DNA from: Bacillota bacterium
Lineage (GTDB): Bacteria > Bacillota > Sulfobacillia > JACIYH01
Assembly (NCBI GenBank): GCA_030019365.1
Contig: JASEFA010000001.1
Span: 186,001-250,000, forward strand
Direction of reading: 5' to 3'
DNA: 64,000 nt
In this document: piece by piece, positions 7,301-27,186 of the stretch
How positions within the stretch are numbered: position 1 is the stretch's first letter
Layout: the number at the start of each line of letters is the position of its first letter
Made by a program: the position numbers and the translations under genes
The notes under the pieces: model-generated
Told to the model about the DNA's origin: nothing
The model's database searches: none
What the model saw: only the letters and a program-made list of their open reading frames with translations

Positions 7301-10300
7301 AGGAAACCCCCCTCCGGTTAGACGCCCACCAAGCATCACCCGGACGTAGACGGGACTGAAAGCAACTTCGTTGAGGAGTGCCGCCCGGATCTCCTCCGGC
7401 CACCAAGCATCACCCGGACGTAGACGGGACTGAAAGAATGGTGTGGCTGTTGTGGCCCGCTGCGTGGGCACCACCAAGCATCACCCGGACGTAGACGGGA
7501 CTGAAAGCCGGCGGCGGAGGCGGTATCTTGGATGGCTTGGGATACCCACCAAGCATCACCCGGACGTAGACGGGACTGAAAGCGAGGAGATTGCGAGACG
7601 CTACGGCCCGCCGAGGCCGCCACCAAGCATCACCCGGACGTAGACGGGACTGAAAGAAAAGGAGGGATACCGTGCCACCGAACGACAAGCAGGAACCACC
7701 AAGCATCACCCGGACGTAGACGGGACTGAAAGGTATCCCAGCCTTTCCAGGTTGGCTATGGCTTTGTCCACCAAGCATCACCCGGACGTAGACGGGACTG
7801 AAAGAGGGTAAATCCCAGGGGTTCATCATCCAGCAGGTATTTCTCCACCAAGCATCACCCGGACGTAGACGGGACTGAAAGCCGCCAGGACCACCAAGAA
7901 GCTACCGAATTTGCCTTCCCCACCAAGCATCACCCGGACGTAGACGGGACTGAAAGCGCTCACATTGGCAAGCCCACTGAAAGGGCCTTAACCACCAAGC
8001 ATCACCCGGACGTAGACGGGACTGAAAGCTTCACGCACCAATTGGCGGATGACGCCGTCCGACCCACCAAGCATCACCCGGACGTAGACGGGACTGAAAG
8101 GGTGCCAGTCCACGCACTCGATGCCGTATACCTGCGCGTTGCCACCAAGCATCACCCGGACGTAGACGGGACTGAAAGCACAGATGCCCCCTGGGAGTAC
8201 CACGAGGCGCTGGCCTCCACCAAGCATCACCCGGACGTAGACGGGACTGAAAGCAGTAGGCGGTCGCGTCGCCGTTCTGCGCGGTGACGCCACCAAGCAT
8301 CACCCGGACGTAGACGGGACTGAAAGAACAGAGTTCCAAACATGCACCCTTGAAAATGGCTCGACCACCAAGCATCACCCGGACGTAGACGGGACTGAAA
8401 GCCCGCATGGCGATGGCCTTGTTGACCGCATCGCTCCCACCAAGCATCACCCGGACGTAGACGGGACTGAAAGCTCTGGGGGCCGTCTAGAGGGAGGATG
8501 CATAGATATGCCACCAAGCATCACCCGGACGTAGACGGGACTGAAAGGTCATAACAGCTCGTAGCGCACCGTCGAAATACAGGCCACCAAGCATCACCCG
8601 GACGTAGACGGGACTGAAAGTAACCTGCCCCTTGTCGTATGCGAAGGAGAAATGCTTGCCACCAAGCATCACCCGGACGTAGACGGGACTGAAAGAGGGT
8701 GGAGCAGGCGGCGACACCCAGGTAGTGGTGCCACCAAGCATCACCCGGACGTAGACGGGACTGAAAGGTATCCCAGCCTTTCCAGGTTGGCTATGGCTTT
8801 GTCCACCAAGCATCACCCGGACGTAGACGGGACTGAAAGGGTTTCCGTAAAAATCCTGCCCGGGAAAACGGGCAAGCCACCAAGCATCACCCGGACGTAG
8901 ACGGGACTGAAAGCGACACACTTGTCCATTAGTTTTCCTATAAAATCTGCCACCAAGCATCACCCGGACGTAGACGGGACTGAAAGAACTCCTTGTCGTA
9001 CCAGGAGCACGGCCACCGCGTCCACCAAGCATCACCCGGACGTAGACGGGACTGAAAGTGGGCTGGCGCAGCGAGATCACGACCAGCAACGGATCGCCAC
9101 CAAGCATCACCCGGACGTAGACGGGACTGAAAGGCCGTCACCCGACGCTGGTGAGCTACCAGCGCGCGGTCCACCAAGCATCACCCGGACGTAGACGGGA
9201 CTGAAAGCCTTAGTGGGCAAACCATGTTCCACCCCGATCATCACTCCACCAAGCATCACCCGGACGTAGACGGGACTGAAAGTGTCGCTCAACTCCTCGG
9301 GCGTGTAGACGGCCCCCGCGACCACCAAGCATCACCCGGACGTAGACGGGACTGAAAGCCGTGAACCCCAGAAACGTCATGCCTTCCATGAATTCACCAC
9401 CAAGCATCACCCGGACGTAGACGGGACTGAAAGCCGCAGCATTCGCAGCATTGCTCTTCTGCGAATGCACTCCACCAAGCATCACCCGGACGTAGACGGG
9501 ACTGAAAGATGGTATGATGTCCCCGGAAGTTCGAGAGGGGGTCTGGCCACCAAGCATCACCCGGACGTAGACGGGACTGAAAGTCCTCCTCGCTTCCTCT
9601 ATTGTCCGCCCCCTTCCTGTCCACCAAGCATCACCCGGACGTAGACGGGACTGAAAGCCCATTCCTTTCTGTCTGGCAAGGGCGGCAGAATTGCCACCAA
9701 GCATCACCCGGACGTAGACGGGACTGAAAGCAATGCGCATCCCTTCGCGGAGGTTATCCCCTTCCACCACCACCAAGCATCACCCGGACGTAGACGGGAC
9801 TGAAAGCCAGGTACCTGGAGACCAGGGTGTCCACGGCAGTCCACCCACCAAGCATCACCCGGACGTAGACGGGACTGAAAGGTTCAGCTGGTTCCAGGCC
9901 AGCAGGATGGTCTCCACCCCACCAAGCATCACCCGGACGTAGACGGGGCTGAAAGGCGGCCTGAGAGAGCCGGACGGACTGCACCAGGAACTCGCCACCA
10001 AGCATCACCCGGACGTAGACGGGACTGAAAGGCCATGACCCGCACCGTCGAGACCTACTGTGGCCGCCACCAAGCATCACCCGGACGTAGACGGGACTGA
10101 AAGGCCTTAGCCGCCCTGCGGATGATCTCCTCGGCGGTCTCCACCAAGCATCACCCGGACGTAGACGGGACTGAAAGTTTGAGGTATGAGGTGTTAATAT
10201 GCCGCGGAATAAACCACCAAGCATCACCCGGACGTAGACGGGACTGAAAGGTTCAGGAAGATGCTCTTCCATGTCCGCTCGAACCACCAAGCATCACCCG

Positions 10301-13300
10301 GACGTAGACGGGACTGAAAGAGGCTACTGAGAAGACATTCCAGCAGCTCATCGAAGCCCACCAAGCATCACCCGGACGTAGACGGGACTGAAAGGCTACT
10401 TGCCGCGCGGCGAGGAAAACCCTCTGGAAGCCACCAAGCATCACCCGGACGTAGACGGGACTGAAAGGCGCAGATCCAGGGCATGTACTCGGCGCTGCTG
10501 GACTCCACCAAGCATCACCCGGACGTAGACGGGACTGAAAGGGTCCTCAAAGGTCTCCTTGGCGAGGTCGTACAGCCCACCAAGCATCACCCGGACGTAG
10601 ACGGGACTGAAAGGCGGCCTGAGAGAGCCGGACGGACTGCACCAGGAACTCGCCACCAAGCATCACCCGGACGTAGACGGGACTGAAAGCGGCGCAGGTC
10701 GGTGCGCACATGGACTTGGTAGATGCCACCAAGCATCACCCGGACGTAGACGGGACTGAAAGGCTGGAGCGCTACGGCGCGGCTCAGCATTGCCACGAAC
10801 CCACCAAGCATCACCCGGACGTAGACGGGACTGAAAGTTGCCTCTTTGCCCAGCTTGCCGATGTTGACCTTTGGCCACCAAGCATCACCCGGACGTAGAC
10901 GGGACTGAAAGCAAAGTAGCGGACCAGGTCCTCGGGGTTCTCGCAGCAGGCCACCAAGCATCACCCGGACGTAGACGGGACTGAAAGTTGAGCCTGTCAC
11001 CATGCAGGAAGAGCTCAAACAAATGCCCACCAAGCATCACCCGGACGTAGACGGGACTGAAAGAGCCTGCCACGCGGCGCTCCAGCTCCTTCTCGAAATC
11101 TTCCACCAAGCATCACCCGGACGTAGACGGGACTGAAAGAACTAACGATGTGCAGAAAATGCCGTTACAGCGGTTACGCCACCAAGCATCACCCGGACGT
11201 AGACGGGACTGAAAGTCAGTACCTCCGGCGTGTCCTTCCAGTAGGGGTCGTACCACCAAGCATCACCCGGACGTAGACGGGACTGAAAGACCAACTACGT
11301 ACACTGAGGAGAAAACTACTTACCACCAAGCATCACCCGGACGTAGACGGGACTGAAAGTGGCATACGGGGCAGGTGGTCTTCCGCCACGCCTGTTTTCC
11401 ACCAAGCATCACCCGGACGTAGACGGGACTGAAAGCTTCCTTGTCTTTGGCCTCAAGCCGCTCCTTCAGGGCCACCAAGCATCACCCGGACGTAGACGGG
11501 ACTGAAAGTAATCTGATCGAAGCGAAGAAGGCCCACATCTCGAGCCACCAAGCATCACCCGGACGTAGACGGGACTGAAAGCGATGTCCGCCGGGGTCAG
11601 GGGGTCGCTGCCGCCGGAGGTCCACCAAGCATCACCCGGACGTAGACGGGACTGAAAGTGGAAGTGGATAGAGCCAGGCTCCGAGGGCGAGTTCGTGATC
11701 CACCAAGCATCACCCGGACGTAGACGGGACTGAAAGAACGTAGATGCCCATTCGATCATAACACCGACCTCCCCACCAAGCATCACCCGGACGTAGACGG
11801 GACTGAAAGTGGCCTTCCGCCGTGTCCACCTCGGACGAAGGCCAATCCCACCAAGCATCACCCGGACGTAGACGGGACTGAAAGTGGTTCCGGAAGGATC
11901 GCCTCGCCCTTGGACCAGTCGCGCCACCAAGCATCACCCGGACGTAGACGGGACTGAAAGATCACGGTCTCCATCAAACCGGGAAAGGTCGTCCTGACCA
12001 CCAAGCATCACCCGGACGTAGACGGGACTGAAAGTTTCAACGTTTTCCCCATACCAGCATACGAATATCTCTTCCACCAAGCATCACCCGGACGTAGACG
12101 GGACTGAAAGCCACCTGCCGCTCGATGGACAGCCAGGGTGGCTCATCTCCACCAAGCATCACCCGGACGTAGACGGGACTGAAAGCACTACACATACCCC
12201 CCAGGGTACCTCCCTAGGGTATCCCACCAAGCATCACCCGGACGTAGACGGGACTGAAAGAGCACAACAGCTTCCGATATGATTCCCACAGGATTGGACC
12301 ACCAAGCATCACCCGGACGTAGACGGGACTGAAAGTGAACACTCCGACCACGACCCCTGCAATCTCTGCTTCCCCACCAAGCATCACCCGGACGTAGACG
12401 GGACTGAAAGTCCGGCTCCCCCGGTGTCCGACATACCAGGATGTAGACCACCAAGCATCACCCGGACGTAGACGGGACTGAAAGAGGGGAACGCACGGTC
12501 ATCCGGGAGATCCTGCCCCCCACCAAGCATCACCCGGACGTAGACGGGACTGAAAGAAACATCTCCAATTCGGGAATGGCGGGGAGATTAACCCACCAAG
12601 CATCACCCGGACGTAGACGGGACTGAAAGTACGTCATGAAGCATAACGAATACCCTGTTAGGCTTATCCACCAAGCATCACCCGGACGTAGACGGGACTG
12701 AAAGACGACCTTCCCGCGCCTGACGCGGATAACTTTGGGGGTCCACCAAGCATCACCCGGACGTAGACGGGACTGAAAGTGAGTGGCGTACCCGCTTCTC
12801 CGGGTTCGAGAACGCCCACCAAGCATCACCCGGACGTAGACGGGACTGAAAGCTGTGCTCAGGGGCCGGTACATACTCCATGTAGCCCACCAAGCATCAC
12901 CCGGACGTAGACGGGACTGAAAGACCGTTTTCTCAACTGCTTCTTTGGCTTGGCGTGCCCACCAAGCATCACCCGGACGTAGACGGGACTGAAAGCTTCC
13001 TTCCTGGGGTTCTTCGGGAAGATTGACTCTCCCACCAAGCATCACCCGGACGTAGACGGGACTGAAAGATACTGCGAGCATAGCAGCGTATGCGTCATAG
13101 TCGACAACCACCAAGCATCACCCGGACGTAGACGGGACTGAAAGGCCCAGAGAAGATCCTGAACCTAGAGATAGAGTCCCCACCAAGCATCACCCGGACG
13201 TAGACGGGACTGAAAGCGCACGAGTGTTACCCCCACAAGCTCTTCGGCCACCTGCCACCAAGCATCACCCGGACGTAGACGGGACTGAAAGGAGCAGCCA

Positions 13301-16300
13301 CCTCTTCCTCCTCCTCTTCCTCCTCGGAGGCCACCAAGCATCACCCGGACGTAGACGGGACTGAAAGCAAGTAATCCCACTCATTCAACCAATCCGCAGG
13401 AGTATCCACCAAGCATCACCCGGACGTAGACGGGACTGAAAGGACGGCCGAAACCCTGGCTCGGTACTCGGATGGCTTCCACCAAGCATCACCCGGACGT
13501 AGACGGGACTGAAAGCACCAAAGCAGATTGCAAGCTGGGAGACTGTTTGGGCCCACCAAGCATCACCCGGACGTAGACGGGACTGAAAGAGCGCGTAGCG
13601 CCCCTGGAACCAGTTGGGCCCATTGCCCCACCAAGCATCACCCGGACGTAGACGGGACTGAAAGCCGTTTTGATAGCCTTCGCAGGATCGAAGTTCGCCA
13701 ACCACCAAGCATCACCCGGACGTAGACGGGACTGAAAGGCCTCGTTGATGGACATAGTGGCGCGCAGAAACTCATTCCACCAAGCATCACCCGGACGTAG
13801 ACGGGACTGAAAGAGTTCTGGTATCCAGCCGTAGCGGGATCAATGCCGCCAACCACCAAGCATCACCCGGACGTAGACGGGACTGAAAGGTGAATATCGC
13901 GCAAGTTCTTGCGGCAATGAAATACCCCACCAAGCATCACCCGGACGTAGACGGGACTGAAAGCTGTTTCCTTTGCAGCAGGGGATATGATTTTTCTCGC
14001 CACCAAGCATCACCCGGACGTAGACGGGACTGAAAGCAAGGTTTTCGGCGGGACCATAGACAGGGTGCAGCGGGTCCACCAAGCATCACCCGGACGTAGA
14101 CGGGACTGAAAGAGCACTTGGTGCGGGTCACGTAGGGCCTTGCGGGGCACCACCAAGCATCACCCGGACGTAGACGGGACTGAAAGGACCTTGTGTTCGA
14201 CATCGACGGGCAGGAGGTCAGGATACCACCAAGCATCACCCGGACGTAGACGGGACTGAAAGTCCGGTCTCGCGCACGAACTCCACGGCCCCAACCTCCC
14301 TCCACCAAGCATCACCCGGACGTAGACGGGACTGAAAGTGGTTGCTTCCAACGCCAGCGGCCAGGCTGTCGCGGCCCACCAAGCATCACCCGGACGTAGA
14401 CGGGACTGAAAGGATACCAACTACGCCCTTGGCTTCACAACACGAGGTCCACCAAGCATCACCCGGACGTAGACGGGACTGAAAGCCACTGCTTTGCCTT
14501 TCAGCATCGCGCTGTAGGGTCCACCAAGCATCACCCGGACGTAGACGGGACTGAAAGCGGGCCATCCATGGGTCATCATCCCCTCATTGGCTTTCCACCA
14601 AGCATCACCCGGACGTAGACGGGACTGAAAGCTTTCCACCAGCGGAGGTCGGCACTGGTGGCTGTCAGCCCACCAAGCATCACCCGGACGTAGACGGGAC
14701 TGAAAGCTGGATATGTGCAACGGAAGGAGGGCGGGTACAAGCCCCACCAAGCATCACCCGGACGTAGACGGGACTGAAAGAAGAGGAGACGGTCTGGCTG
14801 GTGCCCCAGGTGGCGCCACCAAGCATCACCCGGACGTAGACGGGACTGAAAGCTGGCGGAACGTGAGGAGAAAGGACGGGGAATCGCCATCCACCAAGCA
14901 TCACCCGGACGTAGACGGGACTGAAAGCGCCGCGCGGCAAGTAGCGACGGGGATGACGGAGGTCCCACCAAGCATCACCCGGACGTAGACGGGACTGAAA
15001 GACGCCGCGCCCTTTGTGCTGGAGGCCGGGCGCAAGTCCACCAAGCATCACCCGGACGTAGACGGGACTGAAAGGATTTCCTCCGGGTCGTCGAGCCCGG
15101 GGACCCAGGAGTCCACCAAGCATCACCCGGACGTAGACGGGACTGAAAGACCCCACCTCCATCATCTTCGCCAACGACACCACGACCACCAAGCATCACC
15201 CGGACGTAGACGGGACTGAAAGAATCGCATCAAGAACGGTCGCCGTCCACTTAAATTGAGACCACCAAGCATCACCCGGACGTAGACGGGACTGAAAGGG
15301 GTAACCCCATCCGCCCGGGTCATGGATGGCCCGCCCACCAAGCATCACCCGGACGTAGACGGGACTGAAAGGCCGTCGTCCAGGCAGCCTTCCCATTGCG
15401 CGGGACAAGCCACCAAGCATCACCCGGACGTAGACGGGACTGAAAGGTCCACGACATCTCGCTGCCCGCAGGAGCCGACCTCACCACCAAGCATCACCCG
15501 GACGTAGACGGGACTGAAAGTAGAGGGCGTGGCTTGGCTGCTCCGCACGGTGGCCGACCACCAAGCATCACCCGGACGTAGACGGGACTGAAAGTGGATC
15601 GTGCTCACGGTGACGTGCGGCCTCTGCTCGACCACCAAGCATCACCCGGACGTAGACGGGACTGAAAGCATAGTTCCACACGCTGGCCTGGCCCTTGACG
15701 ATACCACCAAGCATCACCCGGACGTAGACGGGACTGAAAGTCGCCAGGGCGGGGAAGGAGTGAGTGACGGTGTTCTTCCACCAAGCATCACCCGGACGTA
15801 GACGGGACTGAAAGTTGATTCCCACCGTCTGCGCCGTCCAGGCACCCCCGGCCACCAAGCATCACCCGGACGTAGACGGGACTGAAAGTCACGGGCAAGC
15901 CGGTTGACGTCGGCACGGCTGGCGACCACCAAGCATCACCCGGACGTAGACGGGACTGAAAGAAGCCTTCCATGGCCGGCTACACCGAGGCCTACACCGT
16001 CCACCAAGCATCACCCGGACGTAGACGGGACTGAAAGGTAGTGTTGTGCGTAAAGGTGCCATCGGACTTGAGAAACCACCAAGCATCACCCGGACGTAGA
16101 CGGGACTGAAAGGGAACTCCTCCTCGGTGAGTACCCCAGATTCCCGGAGCCCACCAAGCATCACCCGGACGTAGACGGGACTGAAAGGAGGAACCAGGCT
16201 GGGAAGTAGCGGCTCACCAGCTCGGCCCACCAAGCATCACCCGGACGTAGACGGGACTGAAAGTCTCGAGTTCCTCGGCCTTCTTGACGGCAGCTTCCTC

Positions 16301-16610
16301 CCACCAAGCATCACCCGGACGTAGACGGGACTGAAAGCAGCTGCGGGTCGGTTGGCTTCGGTGTTGGCGAGTACCCCCACCAAGCATCACCCGGACGTAG
16401 ACGGGACTGAAAGGGTACATTGATTGGATTATAAGGGACAGCAAGGAAGGCCACCAAGCATCACCCGGACGTAGACGGGACTGAAAGAAGAAATAGCATT
16501 CAACCCGGCCACCAAAGAAAGCTTCCACCAAGCATCACCCGGACGTAGACGGGACTGAAAGGCAAGAGAGTAAGCTGGGCATTCCGAACCCTGCCCACCC
16601 ACCAAGCATC
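4359..16610 (+). CRISPR. CRISPR array, 165 full repeats plus one truncated
   Basis: Direct count gives 165 copies of a 37-bp repeat, first at 4359-4395 and last full copy at 16525-16561, with unit lengths of about 72 to 77 bp and spacers of about 35 to 40 bp. The repeat starts CCACCAAGCATCACCCGG and ends GACGGGACTGAAAG. CCCG and CGGG can pair around an 8-base loop, and the last eight bases (ACTGAAAG) fit a crRNA 5' tag. Repeats are almost invariant; copy 76 (9919-9955) has GGGGCTGAAAG instead of GGGACTGAAAG. The right end has only the first 12 bases of a repeat (16599-16610) after one more spacer. Two spacers occur twice. Repeat-derived open frames run through the array on both strands but are not genes. 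Confidence 0.99.
16599..16610 (+). repeat. Truncated terminal CRISPR repeat
   Basis: Twelve bases (CCACCAAGCATC) match the repeat start, then the sequence departs into CGCAGATAAGGAGG, the ribosome binding site of the next gene. This is the leader-distal, oldest end of the array and fixes its orientation. Confidence 0.85.
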
Positions 16611-16632: not shown

Positions 16633-16893
16633 ATGCCGAGGTGTTCCGTATGTGGCCGCGAGCTTCCAGGGCCATTCTTGTCGGAGGGAGGAGGTCCGGT
16701 CTGCATTGACTGCTGGGAGCAAGAACTGGTGACGGGTGCTCAGATGGCTGAGCACTTGAAGGATTGCAAGAAATGCAGGGCTGCATTCTCGCCCGCCTTT
16801 CACCATTTGCGAACCTGCTCGCCGCAGTGCAGGAAGATATTCCTGTTTGCCTTGCGGCAACTGGCAGAGGACCCGCCCAAGAGGGCAGACTGA
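16633..16893 (+). CDS. Small double zinc-knuckle protein of the type III module
   Basis: 86-residue protein of unrecognised family. Eight cysteines fall in two CxxC-based groups: C4/C7 with C24/C27 (CSVC...CIDC), and C45/C48 with C62/C66 (CKKC...CSPQC). Each could hold one zinc ion; the second half also has His41, His57 and His58. A strong AAGGAGG lies nine bases before the ATG, so translation is well supported. It starts 22 bp after the last remnant of the array and lies upstream of the DxTHG CARF gene on the same strand, so it probably belongs to the type III-B operon. No function can be read from the sequence; nucleic acid or protein binding is the natural guess for such knuckles. Confidence 0.75.
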   Translation: MPRCSVCGRELPGPFLSEGGGPVCIDCWEQELVTGAQMAEHLKDCKKCRAAFSPAFHHLRTCSPQCRKIFLFALRQLAEDPPKRAD

Positions 16894-17026: not shown

Positions 17027-17958
17027 GTGAAACTGGTAGCCACCATCGGGGCGGGCAAATACGAAGTCGCTACATACATACTCCAGGAGAATTCGTACGA
17101 AACCAGATACTGCCCACTGGCCATAGCCGGACTGCTGCGGCCGTCCGTGGTCCTGCTGGTCATGACCGAGCAGGCGCAGGCCAAGCACGGGGAGGGTCTT
17201 GCCCAGGGGTTGGAGGAGCTCGGGGTTCCTTTCCGTGAGGTACTCATCCCGAACGGCGCCACATGGGAAGAGATGTGGGAGCCTTTCCGCATCCTGGTGG
17301 AGCAGGTGGAGCCGGGCGACGAGGTGGCGTTCGACATCACCCACGGATTCCGCCACTTACCGTTGTTGAGTTTCCAGTGTTACGAAGTACGACTGCGACA
17401 CCTGCGACGAGGTCCTGGCACTGAGGCGGACATACCAGTTCTGCTGAACCTAGCTGACGTTTTGCGCGACTCAGGCGGAGTCGACCTGGCTATTACCCGC
17501 TACCGTGAGGCCGAAGTACTCGCCAAAGCGACTAGTGCTTCCAACGCGGTGATCGCTGCGCTCGAGGGGAGGGGGTGGGTGCTGGTTCAGGCAGAAGGTA
17601 CGAAGAAGCAAGGGTTTGCTTCGAGGAGGCTATCAGTCGCTACGAGTTGCTGGGTTCATCCGATGAGCCGCTTAGCCCGGAGTGTTTACCCAGCCGCCGC
17701 CTGCTGCTTGCTTTGGCCGTTACCCGCATAGCTGACGGCCGGGGTGAGTCCGGGCTCGATCCCCTGGATCGTGCGCTGGTTCCGGATCCCGCTAAGAATG
17801 GGGCACCGGGGGGGCGGGGACTGGATGACACTGATATCGCCGAGGCGAAAGATTGGTTGTGCCGGGTCCTAGAGCACAACCTCGGAGATGAGGATGCGGT
17901 CCGCGAAGCCCTGAATCGTTTGTGTATGGCGTGGGGGGATTGCAATGTGGGCGATTAG
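17027..17958 (+). pseudogene. DxTHG CARF protein (Csx2/TM1812-like) joined to TPR repeats, frameshifted
   Basis: The N-terminal ~115 residues are a CARF domain of the Csx2/TM1812 group: VATIGAGKYEVATYIL at the start, VVLLVMT, and the hallmark FDITHGFRHLPLL at about 102-114. CARF domains sense cyclic oligoadenylate made by Cas10. Soon after this motif the sequence changes to helical repeats like TPRs (LNLADVLRDSGGVDLAITRYREAEVL) instead of the usual Csx2 C-terminus. The frame used up to about 17600 then loses the TPR pattern (stop at 17731), while another frame resumes it at once (RYEEARVCFEEAISRYELL) and runs to a stop at 17958. One missing base near 17598-17605 explains this. The resumed frame overlaps the cmr1 start by 14 bases, as in a working operon. 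Start GTG 17027 follows GGGGGA. It may be a pseudogene, an assembly error or a recoded gene. Confidence 0.7.
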
Positions 17959-19132
17959 AGTGCCTCTGGAAACTGTCACGCCGCTGTTCCTGGGCGGCAG
18001 CGAGCCATGGGGATCCCCAGAATTGCGCGCAACTTCGTTTCGGGGTGCCATGCGGTTTTGGTTTCGGGCCCTGGCGGGAGCACACTTGGAGAGCATCAAG
18101 GACGTTCGCAGTGAGGAGGCCAGGGTGTTCGGAGACGCAGGGAAGGTAGGTGGCTCGCCTGTAGTGGTGCGCTTGACGGGGAATCCGCGCGCTGGCCGGT
18201 TCGAGGGAGCGCAGGGGCCCGGCGCCCGGTACCTGTTTTTTTCCTTGGCGCAGCGCGAAAGAGACCATACCGGCCGAACCATGCTCATGTGGCGTGACTG
18301 TTTTCCTCCAGGTACGCGGCTCGAAGTCAGCCTGCAGCTCCGATCCCCCGTTAGCGGCCGCGACCACGAGATCCTCGCCCGGCGAACAGCAGCGGCATTT
18401 TGGTTGCTCGTACGCCTGGGCGGGCTGGGTGCGCGCTCCCGCCGGGGGGCGGGTGGTCTACGGGCAACGGCAGATCCGACCGGGTGGCCAACTGAGTTGC
18501 CCGGGCTGGTGGTGCACGCCAGAGACCCCTCTGCCCTCAAAGACGAACTGGAAGTCGGGTTGCGCATGCTGGGAGAGGCCGTAGCGATTCCTGCTGCAGA
18601 GAGGGGCCCGATCCGCCCCACGTTCAACGTTTTGCGCCGGGGGGTGTGCGACATCGCAGTGCTGGACCGCACGTGGCAGACCTGGGAACAGGCTTTAGAG
18701 GCGGTAGGTACGGCTTTACAGAGCTTCAGGAACCGCCGCGAGCCCGACTATAACAATGTCAAGGGCGTGGTGGGGGGCCGCAGCCCGCGCCTGCAAACAG
18801 TGGAGCGCGCCGCCTTCGGACTGCCCATAGTGTTCTATTTCCGCTCGCTCGGAGGTGCGTCCGGCACCTTACAGGGCGACAAATCCGACCGGCGCGCGTC
18901 GCCCCTCTGGATCAGGGTGGTGAGGCTCACGGCCGGGGGATATGCGGTGGTCCTGACCGTCTTTCGTGCGCCGCTGCTCCAGGACCGTGAGCCTCTGAAG
19001 CTGAAAACCCGGGGGAGGCCGGCTCTGGCGCCTGCGCCCGGGCTGGCGCTGATTGACGACTTCCTGCGCGCTCTGTCTACGCCTGGGGGGCTGCACTACG
19101 TGGCGCCCCTGCTGGAGGTGGGCTACCCGTGA
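17945..19132 (+). CDS. cmr1: Type III-B RAMP protein Cmr1
   Basis: Cmr1 is the RAMP subunit near the 3' end of the crRNA in the Cmr complex. The 395-residue protein opens with VPLETVTPLFLGGSEP and RATSFRGAMRFWFRALAG, which match the Cmr1 N-terminus (a strand, then a glycine loop and helix RGxxRFWxRA). GARYLFFSLA and a glycine- and arginine-rich GLGARSRRGAGGL further on fit the RAMP G-loop pattern. Its ATG lies inside the end of the preceding TPR frame, and its stop overlaps the cmr2 GTG by four bases, so it is coupled on both sides. Confidence 0.92.
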   Translation: MWAIRVPLETVTPLFLGGSEPWGSPELRATSFRGAMRFWFRALAGAHLESIKDVRSEEARVFGDAGKVGGSPVVVRLTGNPRAGRFEGAQGPGARYLFFSLAQRERDHTGRTMLMWRDCFPPGTRLEVSLQLRSPVSGRDHEILARRTAAAFWLLVRLGGLGARSRRGAGGLRATADPTGWPTELPGLVVHARDPSALKDELEVGLRMLGEAVAIPAAERGPIRPTFNVLRRGVCDIAVLDRTWQTWEQALEAVGTALQSFRNRREPDYNNVKGVVGGRSPRLQTVERAAFGLPIVFYFRSLGGASGTLQGDKSDRRASPLWIRVVRLTAGGYAVVLTVFRAPLLQDREPLKLKTRGRPALAPAPGLALIDDFLRALSTPGGLHYVAPLLEVGYP

Positions 19133-22100
19133 CCGACCAACGGTTTTGGGAACAGAAGATAGTTGCCTTCCTGCACGACCCGCCCGACAAGCTTCTACTG
19201 GGTCTGGGGGACCACGAGTCGCGCACCCAAGCGTTGCTGACGCAACTGCTAGGGCGTCCCCCGGAATCAGCGGAACTCGAGTTGGCCCGCAAGGCGGACA
19301 GCGTGGCGGCGGCGATGGACCGCGCGGCCTTTCCCGCCCAGGTGGTGGTTACTCCGAGCGACGATCCAGACGGATCGCGCGCCACCAGCGGTGCCACGCT
19401 GTATTGGGCTGATCCCGAAATCCGCCACCCCATGTCTGGCTGCGAATTCAAGGATAGACCCCCGTACGCGATGAACGAACGCCTGAAGGTTTCCGATGCG
19501 TATAAGCTCGTCGTTGATGACATCGCCACGCGGTTTGCCGGCGACCCGCGACGCATGTATCTCGCCCTGTGGCGACGGTTACCCGAGGCAGTGGACCCAT
19601 TTTGGCGCCTGATTCCAGGCGACACCCGCATGGTAGACCACAGCCTGTGGGACCACCTGGATGCTACGACAGCAGTGGTCGGTGCCCTGAATCGACCCGC
19701 CCTGCTGGTGCTTTCGTTGGGTCCTGCGCAGCGGTACATCTACCAGGCCCGGCGTACGCAGGACCTCTGGATGGGTAGCTACATCCTGTCGTACCTGGCC
19801 TGGGAAGCAGCGCGGGCCATCGCGGAAAGCATCGGTCCAGACGCCGTACTGTACCCAGCGCTGCGCGGCCAGCCCCTCGTGGACCGGTGGCTTGCTTCAG
19901 ACGCGGTCGCCGTTTTGAAGCAAGAGGAAATCCCCGATTCGGGCCGGCTGGCGGTGGCTGCATTGCCCAACAAGCTGGTTGCCCTCGTGCCGGCAGACAG
20001 AGCCCGGGCGCTCGCAGAGGATGCGGTTGTTCCTGCGGTCTCGGCTGCGTGGGAGCGGATGGCTAATGCTGTGCTGGATTACCTGGAAACCTGGGCGTTG
20101 GTCGACGACACGTTTCGGGAAATGTGGGCGGTTCAGACAGGCGCGGGGGCTGGCGGAGAGTGGAAGAGTCATTGGGAGTTGTACTGGAGCTACCACGTGT
20201 GGCCAGCGACGCGACCACCCGGCGAGGCGGATGCGTGGCGCGAGGCAGATGATGTGCTGGCCGAATACAAGAGACTGGCGTTTCCGTCTTTTCCGGACGG
20301 CAGCCCAACTGTGCCCCCGGACTGGTACTTTGATCGGGTTTATCAGGTGTACCGGAATACCAAAGGCGGCAGGCTGGTCAACATGGGTACCGCGTACAGC
20401 CTGCTTCACACCCTTGCCGACCGAGCCCATGGGTCCCGCAAAGCGCTACGGGACTTCGTCCAGGTGGCAGAGCGGGGTGAGAAATGTACGTTGTGCGGGG
20501 AACGCGCCGCACTTCATGGCGTGGATGGCAGCAGAACGGGTGTCCGAAGGTTTTGGGGCGATCTGGCGGACGAACTGAAGCGCAGGCAACGCCACGCGGA
20601 GCTGAGGCCGGACGGACGAGAACGTCTGTGCGCTGTCTGCACAATCAAACGCTTTGTGCAGAGGGCGTTCTTCAAGAAAGAACTGGGGTTGGAGGGTGCG
20701 TTTCCTTCCACGAGCACTATTGCTGCCGCAACCTTCCGCGAACGCTTGATAGAGACCCTCAAGGATCTCCCCCCGGGTCACCCGCTGAGGGAAAGGGTTC
20801 GGGTGTTCAGGGACGAGTTGGCAAGTGCGCAGAGTGGGGATGGGGATGCGATTCCCCAGACGGTGGTCTTGGAGTCCGTCCCCCGGCTGGCGGTCCTGCT
20901 TCAAGACATCCGGGATGATGAGGCAAGAGAAGCCATGAGGGACCTCGTGCACTACGATGGAGATTTGTTCTACCCGGAAGCCTACACGGTAGAGCGCTTC
21001 CGGAACAGTTACGGGCTGGATTTCGCTCCCGAGAAGGTTGAACACCTCCGCAAGTGCTTGGGCGGACTGCTGGAGCACGCCAAGCGACCGTCGGCGTACT
21101 TCGCTGTGCTGGCCATGGACGGAGACGAAATCGGTGCCTGGTTATCAGGGGAACGGCTACCTGCTTTCCGTGACGTTCTACACTCGCGCGCGGTCGAACT
21201 GTTCGAGAAGCAGTGGGCACGTGGTAACTTGCAGGACTGGCAGGGCCTCCTCGATGGAGTCACCAGGCGCCTGCTTGGTCCGGCAAGCCATGCGGCCATC
21301 AGCCATGCCGTTGCCAACTTCGCCCTCCATTCTGTTCGCCCCGTTGTGGAGGACCTGTACCCCGGTCGCGTGGTATATGCGGGAGGTGATGACCTCCTTG
21401 CCCTGTTGCCGGCCGATAGTGCCCTTTCGGCGGCCCGCGACCTGCGCGCCTTGTACAGCGGCCAGGCGACTGTGGAAGTTGGGGAAGGCGACCGCTGGAT
21501 TAGGGTCACTCCGGAACTGGTCGGTGACCGCCACGGCTTCTTGCAGGTGGGTAAAGAATGGCTGGTAACAATGGGTCCGAGAGCCGCCATCAGCGCAGGC
21601 ATTGCCATCGCGCACCACCAGGCTCCACTCGACGGAGTGGTGAGGGAAGCACGGGAAGCACTCAAGTCAGCCAAAGACGCATACGGGCGGAATGCGGTCT
21701 GCGTCCACGCGCTGAAACGCTCGGGGGACGCACTGAGGGTTGGTAGTCAGTGGAGTTACTCCGGTCTTACTGATGTAATCGGCCTGTTTCTTGACATCTG
21801 CGAACGGTTGCGTGAAGGGAAACTGTCCTCCCGGTTGGTCTACGACGTGTCCGCTGAGTCCAGGGCGCTCGTCGCTGTTCCAGATGCATATGAAGCCGAA
21901 CTGACGCGCCTCATCAAACGGCACGGGGGCGAAGCGGTCAAGGATAAGGCAGAGGAACAAGCGAAGTTGCTGGCGTCCCAACTTGCCAGGTGGTCCGCGG
22001 CGCTGGAGGCGCACCGGCAGCAGTGGGAGAAGTACGCGCGGTTGGCCTCCGCATCGCAGCCGGACCCCGTAGATGAGGACTACGCCCCCCAGCCAGGTTG

Positions 22101-22161
22101 CGTGGAAGTGGGGAAGTGGCTGCAACTTGCGCGGTTTCTGGAGAGGGGTGGGGCGGAATGA
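19129..22161 (+). CDS. cmr2: Cas10/Cmr2, cyclic oligoadenylate synthase subunit
   Basis: Large signalling subunit of the type III-B complex; on target RNA binding its Palm domain makes cyclic oligoadenylate. 1010 residues. The N-terminal HD-like motif is FLHDPPDKLLL (His16-Asp17). A zinc site is formed by Cys453/Cys456 (EKCTLCGERAALHG) and Cys501/Cys504 (LCAVC). The first Palm has LAMDGDEIGAWLSG. The catalytic GGDD is intact at 752-755 (YAGGDDLLALLP). The C-terminal ~150 residues are helical (domain D4). Intact GGDD together with nearby CARF genes indicates a signalling-competent system. The DNase HD may be weak, since Cmr2 HD regions are often degenerate. GTG start overlaps cmr1 by four bases; the stop overlaps cmr3 as ATGA. 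Confidence 0.97.
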   Translation: MTDQRFWEQKIVAFLHDPPDKLLLGLGDHESRTQALLTQLLGRPPESAELELARKADSVAAAMDRAAFPAQVVVTPSDDPDGSRATSGATLYWADPEIRHPMSGCEFKDRPPYAMNERLKVSDAYKLVVDDIATRFAGDPRRMYLALWRRLPEAVDPFWRLIPGDTRMVDHSLWDHLDATTAVVGALNRPALLVLSLGPAQRYIYQARRTQDLWMGSYILSYLAWEAARAIAESIGPDAVLYPALRGQPLVDRWLASDAVAVLKQEEIPDSGRLAVAALPNKLVALVPADRARALAEDAVVPAVSAAWERMANAVLDYLETWALVDDTFREMWAVQTGAGAGGEWKSHWELYWSYHVWPATRPPGEADAWREADDVLAEYKRLAFPSFPDGSPTVPPDWYFDRVYQVYRNTKGGRLVNMGTAYSLLHTLADRAHGSRKALRDFVQVAERGEKCTLCGERAALHGVDGSRTGVRRFWGDLADELKRRQRHAELRPDGRERLCAVCTIKRFVQRAFFKKELGLEGAFPSTSTIAAATFRERLIETLKDLPPGHPLRERVRVFRDELASAQSGDGDAIPQTVVLESVPRLAVLLQDIRDDEAREAMRDLVHYDGDLFYPEAYTVERFRNSYGLDFAPEKVEHLRKCLGGLLEHAKRPSAYFAVLAMDGDEIGAWLSGERLPAFRDVLHSRAVELFEKQWARGNLQDWQGLLDGVTRRLLGPASHAAISHAVANFALHSVRPVVEDLYPGRVVYAGGDDLLALLPADSALSAARDLRALYSGQATVEVGEGDRWIRVTPELVGDRHGFLQVGKEWLVTMGPRAAISAGIAIAHHQAPLDGVVREAREALKSAKDAYGRNAVCVHALKRSGDALRVGSQWSYSGLTDVIGLFLDICERLREGKLSSRLVYDVSAESRALVAVPDAYEAELTRLIKRHGGEAVKDKAEEQAKLLASQLARWSAALEAHRQQWEKYARLASASQPDPVDEDYAPQPGCVEVGKWLQLARFLERGGAE

Positions 22162-23336
22162 GCTGGTTGTTCATCGAGCCTGCGGACGTGTGGCTGTTCC
22201 GTGACGGCAAGGCCTTCGACGCCGGAAGTGACCATCACGCCCGCAGCGTTTTCCCTCCGAACCCCAGCACCGTTCAGGGGGCACTGCGATCCATGCTCCT
22301 CATGGCATCCGGCGCCCCTCTGCCGGACTTTGCTTTGGGCCCCACAATGGCGAAGCACCGTGTTTCCCGTGCGATCAGTGGCGTCATCGGTTGGCCCGGA
22401 GAGCCTCCGAGGTTCCGTCTGCGTGGGCCGTTCCTAGCGAGGCGGCGGCGGGACCCACAGGGGAAAGAGAGCTACGTGCGTTACTTTCCGCTGCCGGCAG
22501 ACGTGGTCAAGTTAAAGAAGAGAGACGATGGGAAGGGGGTGATCCACCAATGTCTGGCGCCGTTGAGGGAAAGTCCCTTCGGCGCTAACTGGCCCGGGCG
22601 CGGCTTGCTGCCCCTTTGGGCACGGACTTGTGGCGTGCTGGAAGAAGTAGCGGAATGCTGGGTCGACGAACGCACGCTGCTCTCGTATCTTCGGGGCGGC
22701 GGGTTGCCGAGCGATGGCGTTTGCGCGGAGAAGTCCCTGTTTGTGCGGGAGAACCGCTTCGGGGTTGGCCTGGACAGCCAGACCAGACGGCCCCGGGAGG
22801 GTCTTCTGTACCAGGTCGAGTTCATCCGCCCGCGCGACGGTATAGGCCTCCTGGTTGAAGTGGATGACTCTGGTTTGCCGGAGCAGATCAGTTGGCCGGA
22901 TGCCGGGTTACTGTCTTTCGGGGGAGAGAGCCGGGCGGCGCGCGTTACTGTTGTTCAGGGCTACGAGTTGGCGGAGCAGCACGGGCCCGTGCCGGGCGAT
23001 ACGGGGGAACGCCTGAGGGTGTACCTGGCGACGCCCGCGCGCTTTGATGACGCGTGGACTGCGGCTGACTGGAGTAAGTGGTTCTCCGGGCCGGATCTGC
23101 GGTTGGTCGCGGCTGCCGTGAAGCGAATCCACCCCATCGGCGGTGTACGGGTCGATGCCGAGAGCCAGAAGGGCGCTTTCCAGAAGACCATGTATCGGTA
23201 CGTCCCGGCAGGCAGCGTGTTTTTCCTGGAGGCAGATGGACCCATACGGTACAGCGGCATGGCGGTAACGGATAGCGAGGAAGACGCCGTGATTGGATTC
23301 GGCCAGGTGTTCTTGGGTGCATGGGACTACGCCTGA
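22158..23336 (+). CDS. cmr3: Type III-B RAMP protein Cmr3
   Basis: Cas5-like subunit that contacts the crRNA 5' tag and sits next to Cmr2. 392 residues from ATG 22158, which forms an ATGA overlap with cmr2. The start SWLFIEPADVWLFRDGKAFDAG is the Cmr3 signature (first strand, then FRDG-P-F), followed by FPPNPSTVQGALRSMLL, the conserved PxPxTxxGALR segment. The end (VIGFGQVFLGAWDYA) is the typical closing strand of Cmr3. Confidence 0.95.
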   Translation: MSWLFIEPADVWLFRDGKAFDAGSDHHARSVFPPNPSTVQGALRSMLLMASGAPLPDFALGPTMAKHRVSRAISGVIGWPGEPPRFRLRGPFLARRRRDPQGKESYVRYFPLPADVVKLKKRDDGKGVIHQCLAPLRESPFGANWPGRGLLPLWARTCGVLEEVAECWVDERTLLSYLRGGGLPSDGVCAEKSLFVRENRFGVGLDSQTRRPREGLLYQVEFIRPRDGIGLLVEVDDSGLPEQISWPDAGLLSFGGESRAARVTVVQGYELAEQHGPVPGDTGERLRVYLATPARFDDAWTAADWSKWFSGPDLRLVAAAVKRIHPIGGVRVDAESQKGAFQKTMYRYVPAGSVFFLEADGPIRYSGMAVTDSEEDAVIGFGQVFLGAWDYA

Positions 23337-23353
23337 AGGGAGGAACAGGGCAC

Positions 23354-24343
23354 ATGTTTGAAGCTTCGTGCCTGATGTACATGTACGTGGAGACCCCACT
23401 ACACGCGGGCACCGGGCGGGGCTTGGCGGCGGTTGACCTGCCTGTTCAACGCGAACGGGTAACAGGTTATCCCCTGGTGCAGGCAAGCGGAATCAAGGGA
23501 AAAGTGCGGGCGGCAACGCACCTGCTTATCAAGCAGAGGGACCGACAGAACGGGGACGTGATCTGGAAAACGGTCTTTGGGCCAGAGACGTCGGGGGCGC
23601 CCGACCACGCGGGGGCGCTGTCTCCTGGAGACGCCAGGTTGCTTCTGTTCCCGGTTCGATCACTTGCGGGCGTATTCGCCTGGATCACCAGCCGTGACGT
23701 GCTGGCACGGTTCTTCCGCGATGCCGCCGCGGCGCGCCACCGTTTGGAGGTGGACGAAGACGGAAAGACGGTGCCGTTGCAGCTTCCCGTCCAGACTGGT
23801 GCCGATACCGCTTTGGTTTCGCCGGGCAGCACAGTAGTAGCCGGAGGCATGGTGGTGCTGGAGGAGTTCTCCTTCACGCCCAGGGAAGACCGGGCGGTGC
23901 TGAACATCGCACGCTGGCTGGCGGCAAATGTCCTGCCCACTGGCGCCGAGTACGAATACTGGCGTAGCAAGCTATTATCCGGTCTGGTTGTGCTGCCGGA
24001 GAGCGCCTTCCGCGATTTCGCCCTCTATGCTACCGAGGTGGCGACCCGCGTGCGCTTAGACCGTGAGACAAAAACCGTTGAGGAGGGAGGGTTGTGGACC
24101 GAGGAAAGCTTGCCGACCGATACGATCTTGTACGTACCGTTGCACGCAACCCGCGCTCGCAGCTATCAGAAGGGCGGGGGGCGAGTACCGGGGATCCCTG
24201 ACAGTTGGTACGAAGGGCACGGGGCGGCTGACATTCTGGAGTACGTGAAGGATTTGGGCCTCACCCGCGTCCAACTCGGCGGCGATGAAACGGTTGGGCG
24301 GGGTATGGTCCATTTGCGTTTCGGGGAGGTGCACCATGCCTAG
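23354..24343 (+). CDS. cmr4: Type III-B backbone RNase Cmr4
   Basis: Cas7-like backbone subunit that binds crRNA and cuts target RNA at 6-nt intervals. 329 residues from ATG 23354, which follows AGGGAGGAACAGGGCAC. The N-terminus is canonical: CLMYMYVETPLHAGTGRG, then VDLPVQRERVTGYPLVQASGIKGKVR. The acidic residue in AVDLPVQRE lies in the loop that holds the catalytic Asp in studied Cmr4 proteins. QLGGDETVGRGMVHLRF near the end matches the G-x-x-x-x-GxG motif. It overlaps cmr5 by eight bases. Confidence 0.96.
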   Translation: MFEASCLMYMYVETPLHAGTGRGLAAVDLPVQRERVTGYPLVQASGIKGKVRAATHLLIKQRDRQNGDVIWKTVFGPETSGAPDHAGALSPGDARLLLFPVRSLAGVFAWITSRDVLARFFRDAAAARHRLEVDEDGKTVPLQLPVQTGADTALVSPGSTVVAGGMVVLEEFSFTPREDRAVLNIARWLAANVLPTGAEYEYWRSKLLSGLVVLPESAFRDFALYATEVATRVRLDRETKTVEEGGLWTEESLPTDTILYVPLHATRARSYQKGGGRVPGIPDSWYEGHGAADILEYVKDLGLTRVQLGGDETVGRGMVHLRFGEVHHA

Positions 24344-24824
24344 CCATCAGCAGACTCTGGAACAGAGGCGGGCTGCTGAAGCCTGGCGGTGCGTCACCGT
24401 TGCACTGGATCAGGCCAAGCAGAAAGCCAACGAGGCGCTCCAGAAGGCCCAGAAACCGGAAGAGCGTAGCCGTCTCGAGCAAGAGATTCGCAGGCTGAAC
24501 ACCGATTCCGGGAAGCTCTGGGCATCGTACGGCAGTCTGGCACGCAAAGTCCCGGCCCTTGTTACATCCGCCGGTTTGGGCCAAGCAATGGCGTTCCTCC
24601 GCGCTAAGGGGCAGAGCAAGGCGTGGGACCCGCATGAACTGCTTTACAGCCACGTCTCAGACTGGGTGGTCGGCCAGTTGAAGGAGACTGGCGAACTGCT
24701 CGACGTGATCCAGCACAGAAGTAGCGAAGTGTACCGCCAGGCGACCTCGGAAGCTCTTGCCTTTCTACTCTGGGTGAAGCGTTTCGCCGAGGCCAGGTTG
24801 CCCGAGGCTACGGAGGGACCATGA
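24336..24824 (+). CDS. cmr5: Type III-B small subunit Cmr5
   Basis: All-helical small subunit (Cas11-like) that lines the filament beside Cmr4 and helps hold the target RNA. 162 residues from ATG 24336, with GGGGAGG seven bases upstream. The start TLEQRRAAEAWRCV and the segment KVPALVTSAGLGQAMAFLRAKG are the conserved Cmr5 elements. The C-terminal helix pair (YRQATSEALAFLLWVKRFAEARL) also fits. It overlaps cmr6 as ATGA. The insertion KANEALQKAQKPEERSRLEQ makes it slightly longer than many homologues. Confidence 0.95.
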   Translation: MPSHQQTLEQRRAAEAWRCVTVALDQAKQKANEALQKAQKPEERSRLEQEIRRLNTDSGKLWASYGSLARKVPALVTSAGLGQAMAFLRAKGQSKAWDPHELLYSHVSDWVVGQLKETGELLDVIQHRSSEVYRQATSEALAFLLWVKRFAEARLPEATEGP

Positions 24825-25885
24825 TGGTTGGGAACCGGCATGAAAAGGATGCGAGGCCACTCTATCCCTTGCCTAAGGATACAGCGGCAACGGCTGTCCT
24901 CCGCGGCGAACTCGCGGTGTGTTTGAACCTGGGCCTGCGCTTCGACAGGTTTACCCCCTTCGGACCGGATTGGTCTCTGGAGGGACCCGCCAAGAAGAGA
25001 GCGCTGGATAACCTGGTGCAGGTTGGCAACAGCGCTGGGAAAGACCCTGGGTATCGTGATCTTGTGAGGCAGCACTACCGGCGGTGGCGAGAGATGGTGA
25101 GGGCAGGTGGCGCGCTCAACGATTGTGTTTTCGAGGCAGGGCCCGAATGGCGCATGGCGGTGGGATTGGGCCGGGGTGGCGTTCTGGAGACGGGGTTCGC
25201 GTTCCACCATGTGTACGGTTTCCCGTACCTTCCAGGTAGTGCCCTCAAGGGCCTTACTCGATCATACGTGCTGTGGGTGGTAGCCGGTAACCTGGGTGTA
25301 CCTTACACTGTGCCTGGGGAGCCAAGGCCGGGGAGGACGCCCCTCCAATACCTCGAGGCCATCCTCACGGAGCCGGACGAAAGCGAGCGTCGCGCTGCGC
25401 TGGAAAGACTCCAAGACAGCCCCGGATTGCCAGAGGATGCTGTTGTGCGAACGGCGGAGGCTGTGCGCTTACTCGCAGAACACAAATTCGATGGCTCGCC
25501 GTCCTTGAGCGTCAGCCAGTGCATCCGTGTCTACCGTGATGTCTTCGGTGCGTCGGGACATAAGGGCCGGCGCGGATCTGTAGTTTTCTTCGACGCAGTG
25601 CCTGTCGAGCCTCCCGTGCTCAAGGTTGACGTGATGAACCCCCACTACGGGGAGTACTATCGAGGCGCGGAAGCCCCGGCTGACTATCTGAGCCCCGTCC
25701 CGGTTTACTTCCTCGCAGTAGAGGCCGGGAGCCGATTTGCGTTTGCAGTAGGCGGCGCCGACGAGGAACTCGCGCGCAAGGCAAAGAGCTGGCTCGTTTC
25801 CGCTCTCCGTGACTTCGGCGCCGGGGCCAAGACATCCGCGGGCTACGGCTACTTCAGCTTCCCCTCGCCAGGAGTGCGGAAGTGA
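24821..25885 (+). CDS. cmr6: Type III-B RAMP protein Cmr6
   Basis: RAMP subunit near the 3' end of the crRNA, next to Cmr1. 354 residues. The key block FHHVYGFPYLPGSALKGLTRSYVL (first part of the Cmr6 signature, P-x-x-P-G-S-S/A-x-K-G) is at about residues 127-150. GRRGSVVFFDAVP, DVMNPHYGEYY and AGAKTSAGYGYFSF near the C-terminus complete the family pattern. Starts ATGATG at 24821 with an ATGA overlap with cmr5. It closes the cmr block; about 190 bp without a gene follow before the CARF-RelE-like gene. Confidence 0.95.
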   Translation: MMVGNRHEKDARPLYPLPKDTAATAVLRGELAVCLNLGLRFDRFTPFGPDWSLEGPAKKRALDNLVQVGNSAGKDPGYRDLVRQHYRRWREMVRAGGALNDCVFEAGPEWRMAVGLGRGGVLETGFAFHHVYGFPYLPGSALKGLTRSYVLWVVAGNLGVPYTVPGEPRPGRTPLQYLEAILTEPDESERRAALERLQDSPGLPEDAVVRTAEAVRLLAEHKFDGSPSLSVSQCIRVYRDVFGASGHKGRRGSVVFFDAVPVEPPVLKVDVMNPHYGEYYRGAEAPADYLSPVPVYFLAVEAGSRFAFAVGGADEELARKAKSWLVSALRDFGAGAKTSAGYGYFSFPSPGVRK

Positions 25886-26079: not shown

Positions 26080-27186
26080 GTGTCCGCTACAGTGTTGATT
26101 TGCACCGTCGGGACCAGTCTCCTGACTTACGTCCCGCAGTTGTTGGGGCGTGAAGCGGCTGACCTGGGCCGTCCGGCGGTGCAGGATGAAATCGTCGAGT
26201 CGTTGCTCTCCAGGGACCCCGCGGACAGGGTGTGCGGAGCCGAGATCAACTCCGTGCTGCTCATCGAGCGGCACATGGTTGCCACTGGGCGCTCCGTCTA
26301 CTTTCTGCACTCGGAGACGGACGAGGGTCGATGGGCGGCACAGATTCTCCAGAAGTACTACGAATTGAAGCAGTGGTACGCGGAGACTCGAGAGGTGAGG
26401 GGACTCCGGGACGACAAACCCGGGCAATTCCGCTCCGAGGGTTTGCGGCGCCTGGCCCGAGAGATGGCGGCCATAGTCAGGGAGCGCGGCGCCCCCACCA
26501 CCATCATCAACGCCACCGGAGGCTACAAGGCGCAGGTGGCGATCACCGTGTTGATCGGCCAGGCGATGGGCACCACGGTCTACTACAAGCACGAACGCTT
26601 CAACGACGTCATCGACTTTCCCCCGATGCCGGTTTCCTTCGACCTCAAGCTGTGGTTGCGCCACTCTGCCCTGTTCTTTGCCCTTGATCGGGGGGATCTC
26701 ATAGCGTACGACGACTGCAGGGCCGAATGGGAGGAAGCCCTTGAGCCGCTTATCAAAAGGGTGTCCATAAACGGTAAATACTACCTCGAACTGACACCCG
26801 TGGGCCAGGTATTCCACGAGCGGTTGAAGACGGACCTTCCACAGACGGACACCTTAAAACCGCCGGACGCTCCCGGTCCCATGCCGGGAGTTCGCCTGAG
26901 GGATCACGACTGGCGAGGCCTGCGCGAGCGCCTGGAGAAGTGGCTGAACCGATTGCAGGCCGAGAAGCGCTACATCACCGGGATATCAGATCAGCGATTC
27001 GCCGATGGCGGGCGCCTGGGCTGCAAGGTTGTGCCGGAGGCAGCCGGCCGAGGTGCCATCCGGCTATGCGTACCTTTCGGGGATATCTGGGCGGTATTCC
27101 GGGTGAACACCACCGCCGCCACAGAGGGGCAACTTCAATGGATCACTGCCGATATCAACCAGTGGCTGCAGGACAACCCTTTCTGA
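26080..27186 (+). CDS. CARF effector with winged helix and RelE-like C-terminus (APE2256-type, Cami1-like)
   Basis: Putative ring-nucleotide-activated effector, 368 residues. Residues 1-190 are an APE2256-type CARF domain: LICTVGTSLLTYV at the start and TIINATGGYKAQ at about 142-152, followed by VLIGQAMGTTVYYKHERF. About 217-250 reads as a winged helix (WEEALEPLIKRV...LELTPVGQVFHERL). The last ~95 residues have no HEPN R-x4-6-H motif. Instead two helices (RGLRERLEKWLNRLQ) lead into strands rich in basic residues and the closing pair LCVPFGDIWAVFRVN, which resembles the RelE toxin fold. CARF-RelE proteins such as Cami1 cut ribosome-bound mRNA; that this protein does so is inference. GTG start follows AGGAGGGG. 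It lies downstream of cmr6 and may have its own regulation. Confidence 0.72.
   Translation: MSATVLICTVGTSLLTYVPQLLGREAADLGRPAVQDEIVESLLSRDPADRVCGAEINSVLLIERHMVATGRSVYFLHSETDEGRWAAQILQKYYELKQWYAETREVRGLRDDKPGQFRSEGLRRLAREMAAIVRERGAPTTIINATGGYKAQVAITVLIGQAMGTTVYYKHERFNDVIDFPPMPVSFDLKLWLRHSALFFALDRGDLIAYDDCRAEWEEALEPLIKRVSINGKYYLELTPVGQVFHERLKTDLPQTDTLKPPDAPGPMPGVRLRDHDWRGLRERLEKWLNRLQAEKRYITGISDQRFADGGRLGCKVVPEAAGRGAIRLCVPFGDIWAVFRVNTTAATEGQLQWITADINQWLQDNPF

Follow-up and report, generated by a model that had tools for sequence, protein, structure and literature searches.

A probable csx2 relic with a TPR gene tail and a frameshift, upstream of cmr1 in a type III-B CRISPR locus

Introduction

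The Csx2/TM1812 proteins (TIGR02221; CARF2--CARF_HEPN in PADLOC) are type III ribonucleases, and the CARF-HEPN build of their family has been described (PMC3710099). It is common for one locus to have two cA4 effectors, and Csx1 was accompanied by Cami1 in 54 surveyed loci (PMC11229360). Here we analysed a window, i.e., a stretch of 64,000 nucleotides from a Bacillota bacterium (contig JASEFA010000001.1), in which the gene at 17027-17958 shares with Csx2 the CARF start and the DxTHG motif within residues 1-117. Its position immediately before cmr1 is also that of an intact csx2 gene in the related locus L049. In contrast to Csx2, the window gene ends inside the CARF domain, lacks the YYGA and PVFDLT strands and the RxxxxH of the HEPN domain, has TPR repeats in their place, and its frame is broken.

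Two other groups of proteins bear comparison. Csx29, the TPR-CHAT protein of the type III-E Craspase, likewise carries TPR repeats beside a type III system, but the likeness is in name only: the window gene has no CHAT protease, Csx29 has no CARF domain, and the subtypes differ. The Cami1/CARF7 effectors (CARF-RelE and CARF-DUF2103) include the product of another gene of the window, at 26080-27186, whereas the csx2 remnant belongs to a different CARF family, and this match concerns the neighbour gene. A sequence-only reading had left two options for the gene at 17027-17958, a CARF-TPR adaptor or a fresh pseudogene. Most likely, the feature is what remains of a member of a known effector family, rather than a novel type of sensor protein.

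Results

The 5' part of the gene (17027-17377, forward strand) was identified by a profile of relatives, PADLOC and TIGR02221 as the first third of csx2, encoding CARF residues 1-117. The motif FDITHG, reported as intact in the sequence-only reading, was indeed found in the frame-1 product (residues 102-107), and TIGR02549 recognized this product as having an N-terminal CARF domain with DxTHG at 30.5 bits, above its cut-off of 21. The profile built from 18 full Csx2 relatives scored 107.7 bits over residues 2-117 and ended abruptly there. The PADLOC model CARF2--CARF_HEPN matched residues 1-117 to its positions 2-116 of 376 (4.4e-34), and most of the PADLOC CARF-HEPN and Csx1 models ended at residues 114-120. 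TIGR02221, which matches all 35 full relatives, gave the CARF piece 52.5 bits (E 6e-14; best stretch at profile positions 96-156 of 218), short of its cut-off of 76.25 bits; the relative L003 scores 88.9.

Past residue 117 the profile of relatives gave no match, with filters off and at a threshold at which shuffled controls get listed, and a reading of the TPR part as a worn HEPN half was rejected on this result. In the relatives, a YYGA-type strand and then a PVFDLT-type strand come directly after the DxTHG helix (alignment A3). Both are missing from the window in this alignment, and neither of these last two CARF strands was present in any of its three frames. The HEPN domain, whose R-N-x3-H motif is invariant in 35 relatives, is missing from the window gene as well. 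The earlier description of a Csx2-type protein with its C-terminal half replaced by TPR helices is therefore right as to a CARF start followed by TPR, and needs correction in that the CARF domain itself is also cut, at about residue 117.

The 310-residue protein obtained by reading through the frame break matched 34 of the 398 genomes of the phylum (its own included), with no foreign match beyond residue 130, and 12 of the 31 genomes with the closest related cmr loci, none beyond residue 132. Matches in plasmids (n = 16) ended at residues 114-119, and a single weak match, obtained by tblastn in a III-B locus, extended to residue 142. The TPR part was not reached by any alignment to about 60 relatives, and TPR families matched none of the 35 full relatives. 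Full-length CARF-plus-TPR homologues, a search for which had been proposed, were found intact neither in the 398 phylum genomes nor in 154 genomes of the class, in plasmids or in the 31 genomes whose cmr loci are related. As a separate observation, two Csx2-type CARF matches lie within one open frame of 853 residues in another genome (G407:C1:1205088-1206701, minus strand; L137), perhaps a tandem CARF-HEPN-CARF-HEPN protein.

The frame-1 ORF with the CARF and TPR parts (forward strand) runs from GTG 17027, immediately preceded by a GGGGGA run, to the stop at 17729-17731 and encodes 234 residues. Frame 3 of the same strand opens at 17536 and reaches its stop at 17956-17958, thereby overlapping cmr1 (ATG at 17945) by 14 nt; any given frame is open over 420 nt with a chance of about 0.007, and both frames are open across 17536-17728. 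TPR_12 of Pfam (cut-off 30.1 bits) scored 17.6 bits on the frame-1 product and 13.1 bits on the frame-3 product, each below the cut-off, and 36.4 bits (E 5.9e-9) with the break read through. This bears out the claim that the TPR pattern breaks near 17600 and resumes in another frame up to a stop overlapping cmr1. Judged from these matches, frames 1 and 3 are parts of one TPR stretch, with a first piece in frame with CARF (17378-17595, forward strand; TPR_12 at residues 139-190) and a second piece in frame 3 (17596-17958, forward strand).

Among six break positions tried, the TPR_12 score was highest (37.5 bits) at about 17593-17596, so the break is placed near there, and lowest (24.5 bits) for a break at 17563, immediately 5' of the G-run. 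By codon log-odds trained on the neighbouring genes, the preferred frame passes from 1 to 3 at 17560-17620, and this switch and the TPR_12 peak together make 17588-17598 the most likely place of the shift. With respect to the two G-rich sites named earlier, the score by break position favours the second, GCAGAAGGTACG, over GGGGAGGGGG; the frame break is placed better at GCAGAAGG than at the G-run.

The open overlap of frames 1 and 3 at 17536-17728 and its G5 run at 17571 are what could be expected if programmed -1 frameshifting or transcriptional slippage yielded the full protein in life. Nevertheless, this overlap contains no canonical X XXY YYZ slippery heptamer for a -1 shift in frame, the G5 run is its only homopolymer of at least five nucleotides, in the best TPR register the shift falls about 20 nt downstream of that run, and there are no relatives to show conservation, which leaves recoding with a negligible probability. 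The same overlap contains the GTG 17575 of an alternative ORF (17575-17958, 127 residues) with a GGGGAGG purine-rich run resembling a Shine-Dalgarno sequence just upstream, and the ligand motif DxTHG is retained in the CARF piece. The gene might thus make two small products, a truncated CARF protein of 234 residues that might soak up cyclic oligoadenylate and a TPR fragment. Since a TPR helix contains GTG 17575, the fragment would start in the middle of a repeat; moreover, the CARF fold is incomplete and no relatives split in such a manner were found, and we give this reading only a slim chance.

The CARF and TPR pieces are joined in frame at 17375-17378, an approximate position given by the end of Csx2 homology and by a drop in codon preference. 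At this point, where the homology ends, the codon log-odds, about +9 to +14 before it, drop to about 0; the CARF part has a GC3 of 0.78 and the frame-1 TPR part one of 0.59. In an AlphaFold2 model run with 22 relatives, confidence was 84-98 up to residue 100, then 66, and then 45-52 except for one block at 61; its best PDB matches were the CARF domains of Csm6 and Csx1, with modest TM-scores.

An intact adaptor, i.e., a 310-residue cyclic oligoadenylate-binding protein whose TPR repeats recruit a partner, with the frameshift being a sequencing or assembly error, would agree with the in-frame join, the read-through TPR_12 match above the curated cut-off and a stop that overlaps cmr1 as in a normal operon. 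Against it stand a CARF domain without two strands that the relatives have, the lack of TPR in any relative, and the collapse of model confidence and the change of codon preference at the join. The adaptor reading is weak because even in an unbroken frame the CARF domain is incomplete and no relative shares this make-up, and since recoding signals are missing too, the adaptor proposed earlier is very unlikely. Remoter still is a nuclease-free CARF-TPR protein, known from this sole sequenced copy and frameshifted by error, in which TPR helices would replace the missing edge of the CARF sheet and, when cyclic oligoadenylate binds, would recruit a separate effector.

The rest of the III-B locus follows on the forward strand. 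Intact cmr1 (17945-19132; TIGR01894 52.3 bits, cut-off 28.65) is followed by cmr2/cas10 (19129-22161; TIGR02577 242.7 bits), whose translation has the HD and GGDD motifs (AGGDDLLALLP), and by intact cmr3, cmr4, cmr5 and cmr6 (22098-25885), all above NCBIfam cut-offs. A second CARF effector gene at 26080-27186, classified by PADLOC as the CARF7 family of CARF_DUF2103/CARF_RelE type, is full length (PDLC01930, 5.1e-96, residues 4-364 against model positions 3-353 of 353; CARF_RelE, 6e-50). It stands at the end of the cmr operon and has a remote match to the APE2256-family structures 8phb and 8phj. On the other side, a CRISPR array with 165 copies of a 37-nt repeat (4359-16561, forward strand) lies just upstream, about 470 nt away; 164 of the repeats are perfect, and a worn partial repeat occurs at about 16597 beside the csx2 remnant. 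Between the array and the remnant there is a small cysteine-rich ORF (16633-16893, 86 residues) with CxxC pairs and a zinc-ribbon-like appearance, which matched no Pfam family above cut-off. Scanning this region for Rfam families, promoters and terminators gave no matches.

The near-perfect array of 165 repeats so close by and a draft genome of 27 contigs would be compatible with an assembly chimera at the CARF/TPR join, at the frameshift or at both, the living cell having an intact csx2. However, the genome has only one csx2-like match, the missing csx2 half was not found elsewhere in it, the contig is 725 kb long, and unique sequence lies on both sides of the join, so that this account is about as improbable as the two small products.

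The two nearest genomes, of the same genus (G001 and G002), had no matches to csx2, cmr1 or cmr4, in keeping with a locus that is gained and lost; the type III-B locus would be absent from them or too different to be matched. In other loci of the class, single ORFs (L044:9853-12282, plus strand; L045:1631-3820, minus strand) match Cmr6 in their first part and Cmr1 in their second, and represent a Cmr6-Cmr1 fusion in two families.

The parent of the TPR part was sought in several places. At E 0.001 no close copy was found in the host genome, which has 15 TPR_12 places, and no parent gene was found in plasmids or phages. The search of related III-B loci by tblastn with the TPR part gave nothing, the 25 commonest of the 59 gene families found upstream of cmr1 in such loci do not include TPR, and the frame-1 protein scanned directly against genome contigs and viral contigs gave no match. 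Because neither the host genome nor the genes upstream of cmr1 elsewhere provided a parent, we can only infer the route of the fusion: the 3' part of a TPR gene, either already located before cmr1 or brought there by rearrangement, would have been joined to the csx2 stump.

Discussion

The feature is very probably a decayed csx2 gene that became fused with the tail of a TPR gene in a rearrangement and then underwent a frameshift. It would have started as an ordinary gene of csx2 type, whose product sensed cyclic oligoadenylate by CARF and cut RNA by HEPN. A deletion or recombination would have removed everything after CARF residue 117, leaving 351 nt linked in frame with the 3' portion of a gene for TPR repeats; it is the stop of this TPR gene that now overlaps cmr1. 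Afterwards, a frame shift near 17590, consistent with the loss of one base, would have broken the TPR part. The shift may also be an error of sequencing or assembly. The earlier suggestion of a pseudogene of recent date, with its operon position retained, is supported. Conversely, the in-frame join of CARF and TPR, together with a single break and otherwise no stops in the TPR part, could mean that selection acted after the fusion.

The 234-residue product should be without effector function, because, as written, its CARF sheet is unfinished, its nuclease missing and its tail scrambled out of frame. The loss of Csx2 is plausible since loci with two effectors are common and since Cmr1-6, the GGDD motif of Cas10 and the second CARF effector are intact. 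We propose that the locus may still signal by its intact Cas10 and act by the CARF effector at 26080-27186, and that the remaining role of the remnant may be its place in the operon, with translation up to cmr1 providing coupling.

As a mechanism the csx2 remnant deserves little weight. It is a clear case of the decay of a CRISPR ancillary effector, in which the place in the operon, the rest of the III-B system and the second CARF effector are intact. It also calls for caution, in that the completeness of the CARF sheet should be checked before ORFs that combine CARF with another part are called new effectors.
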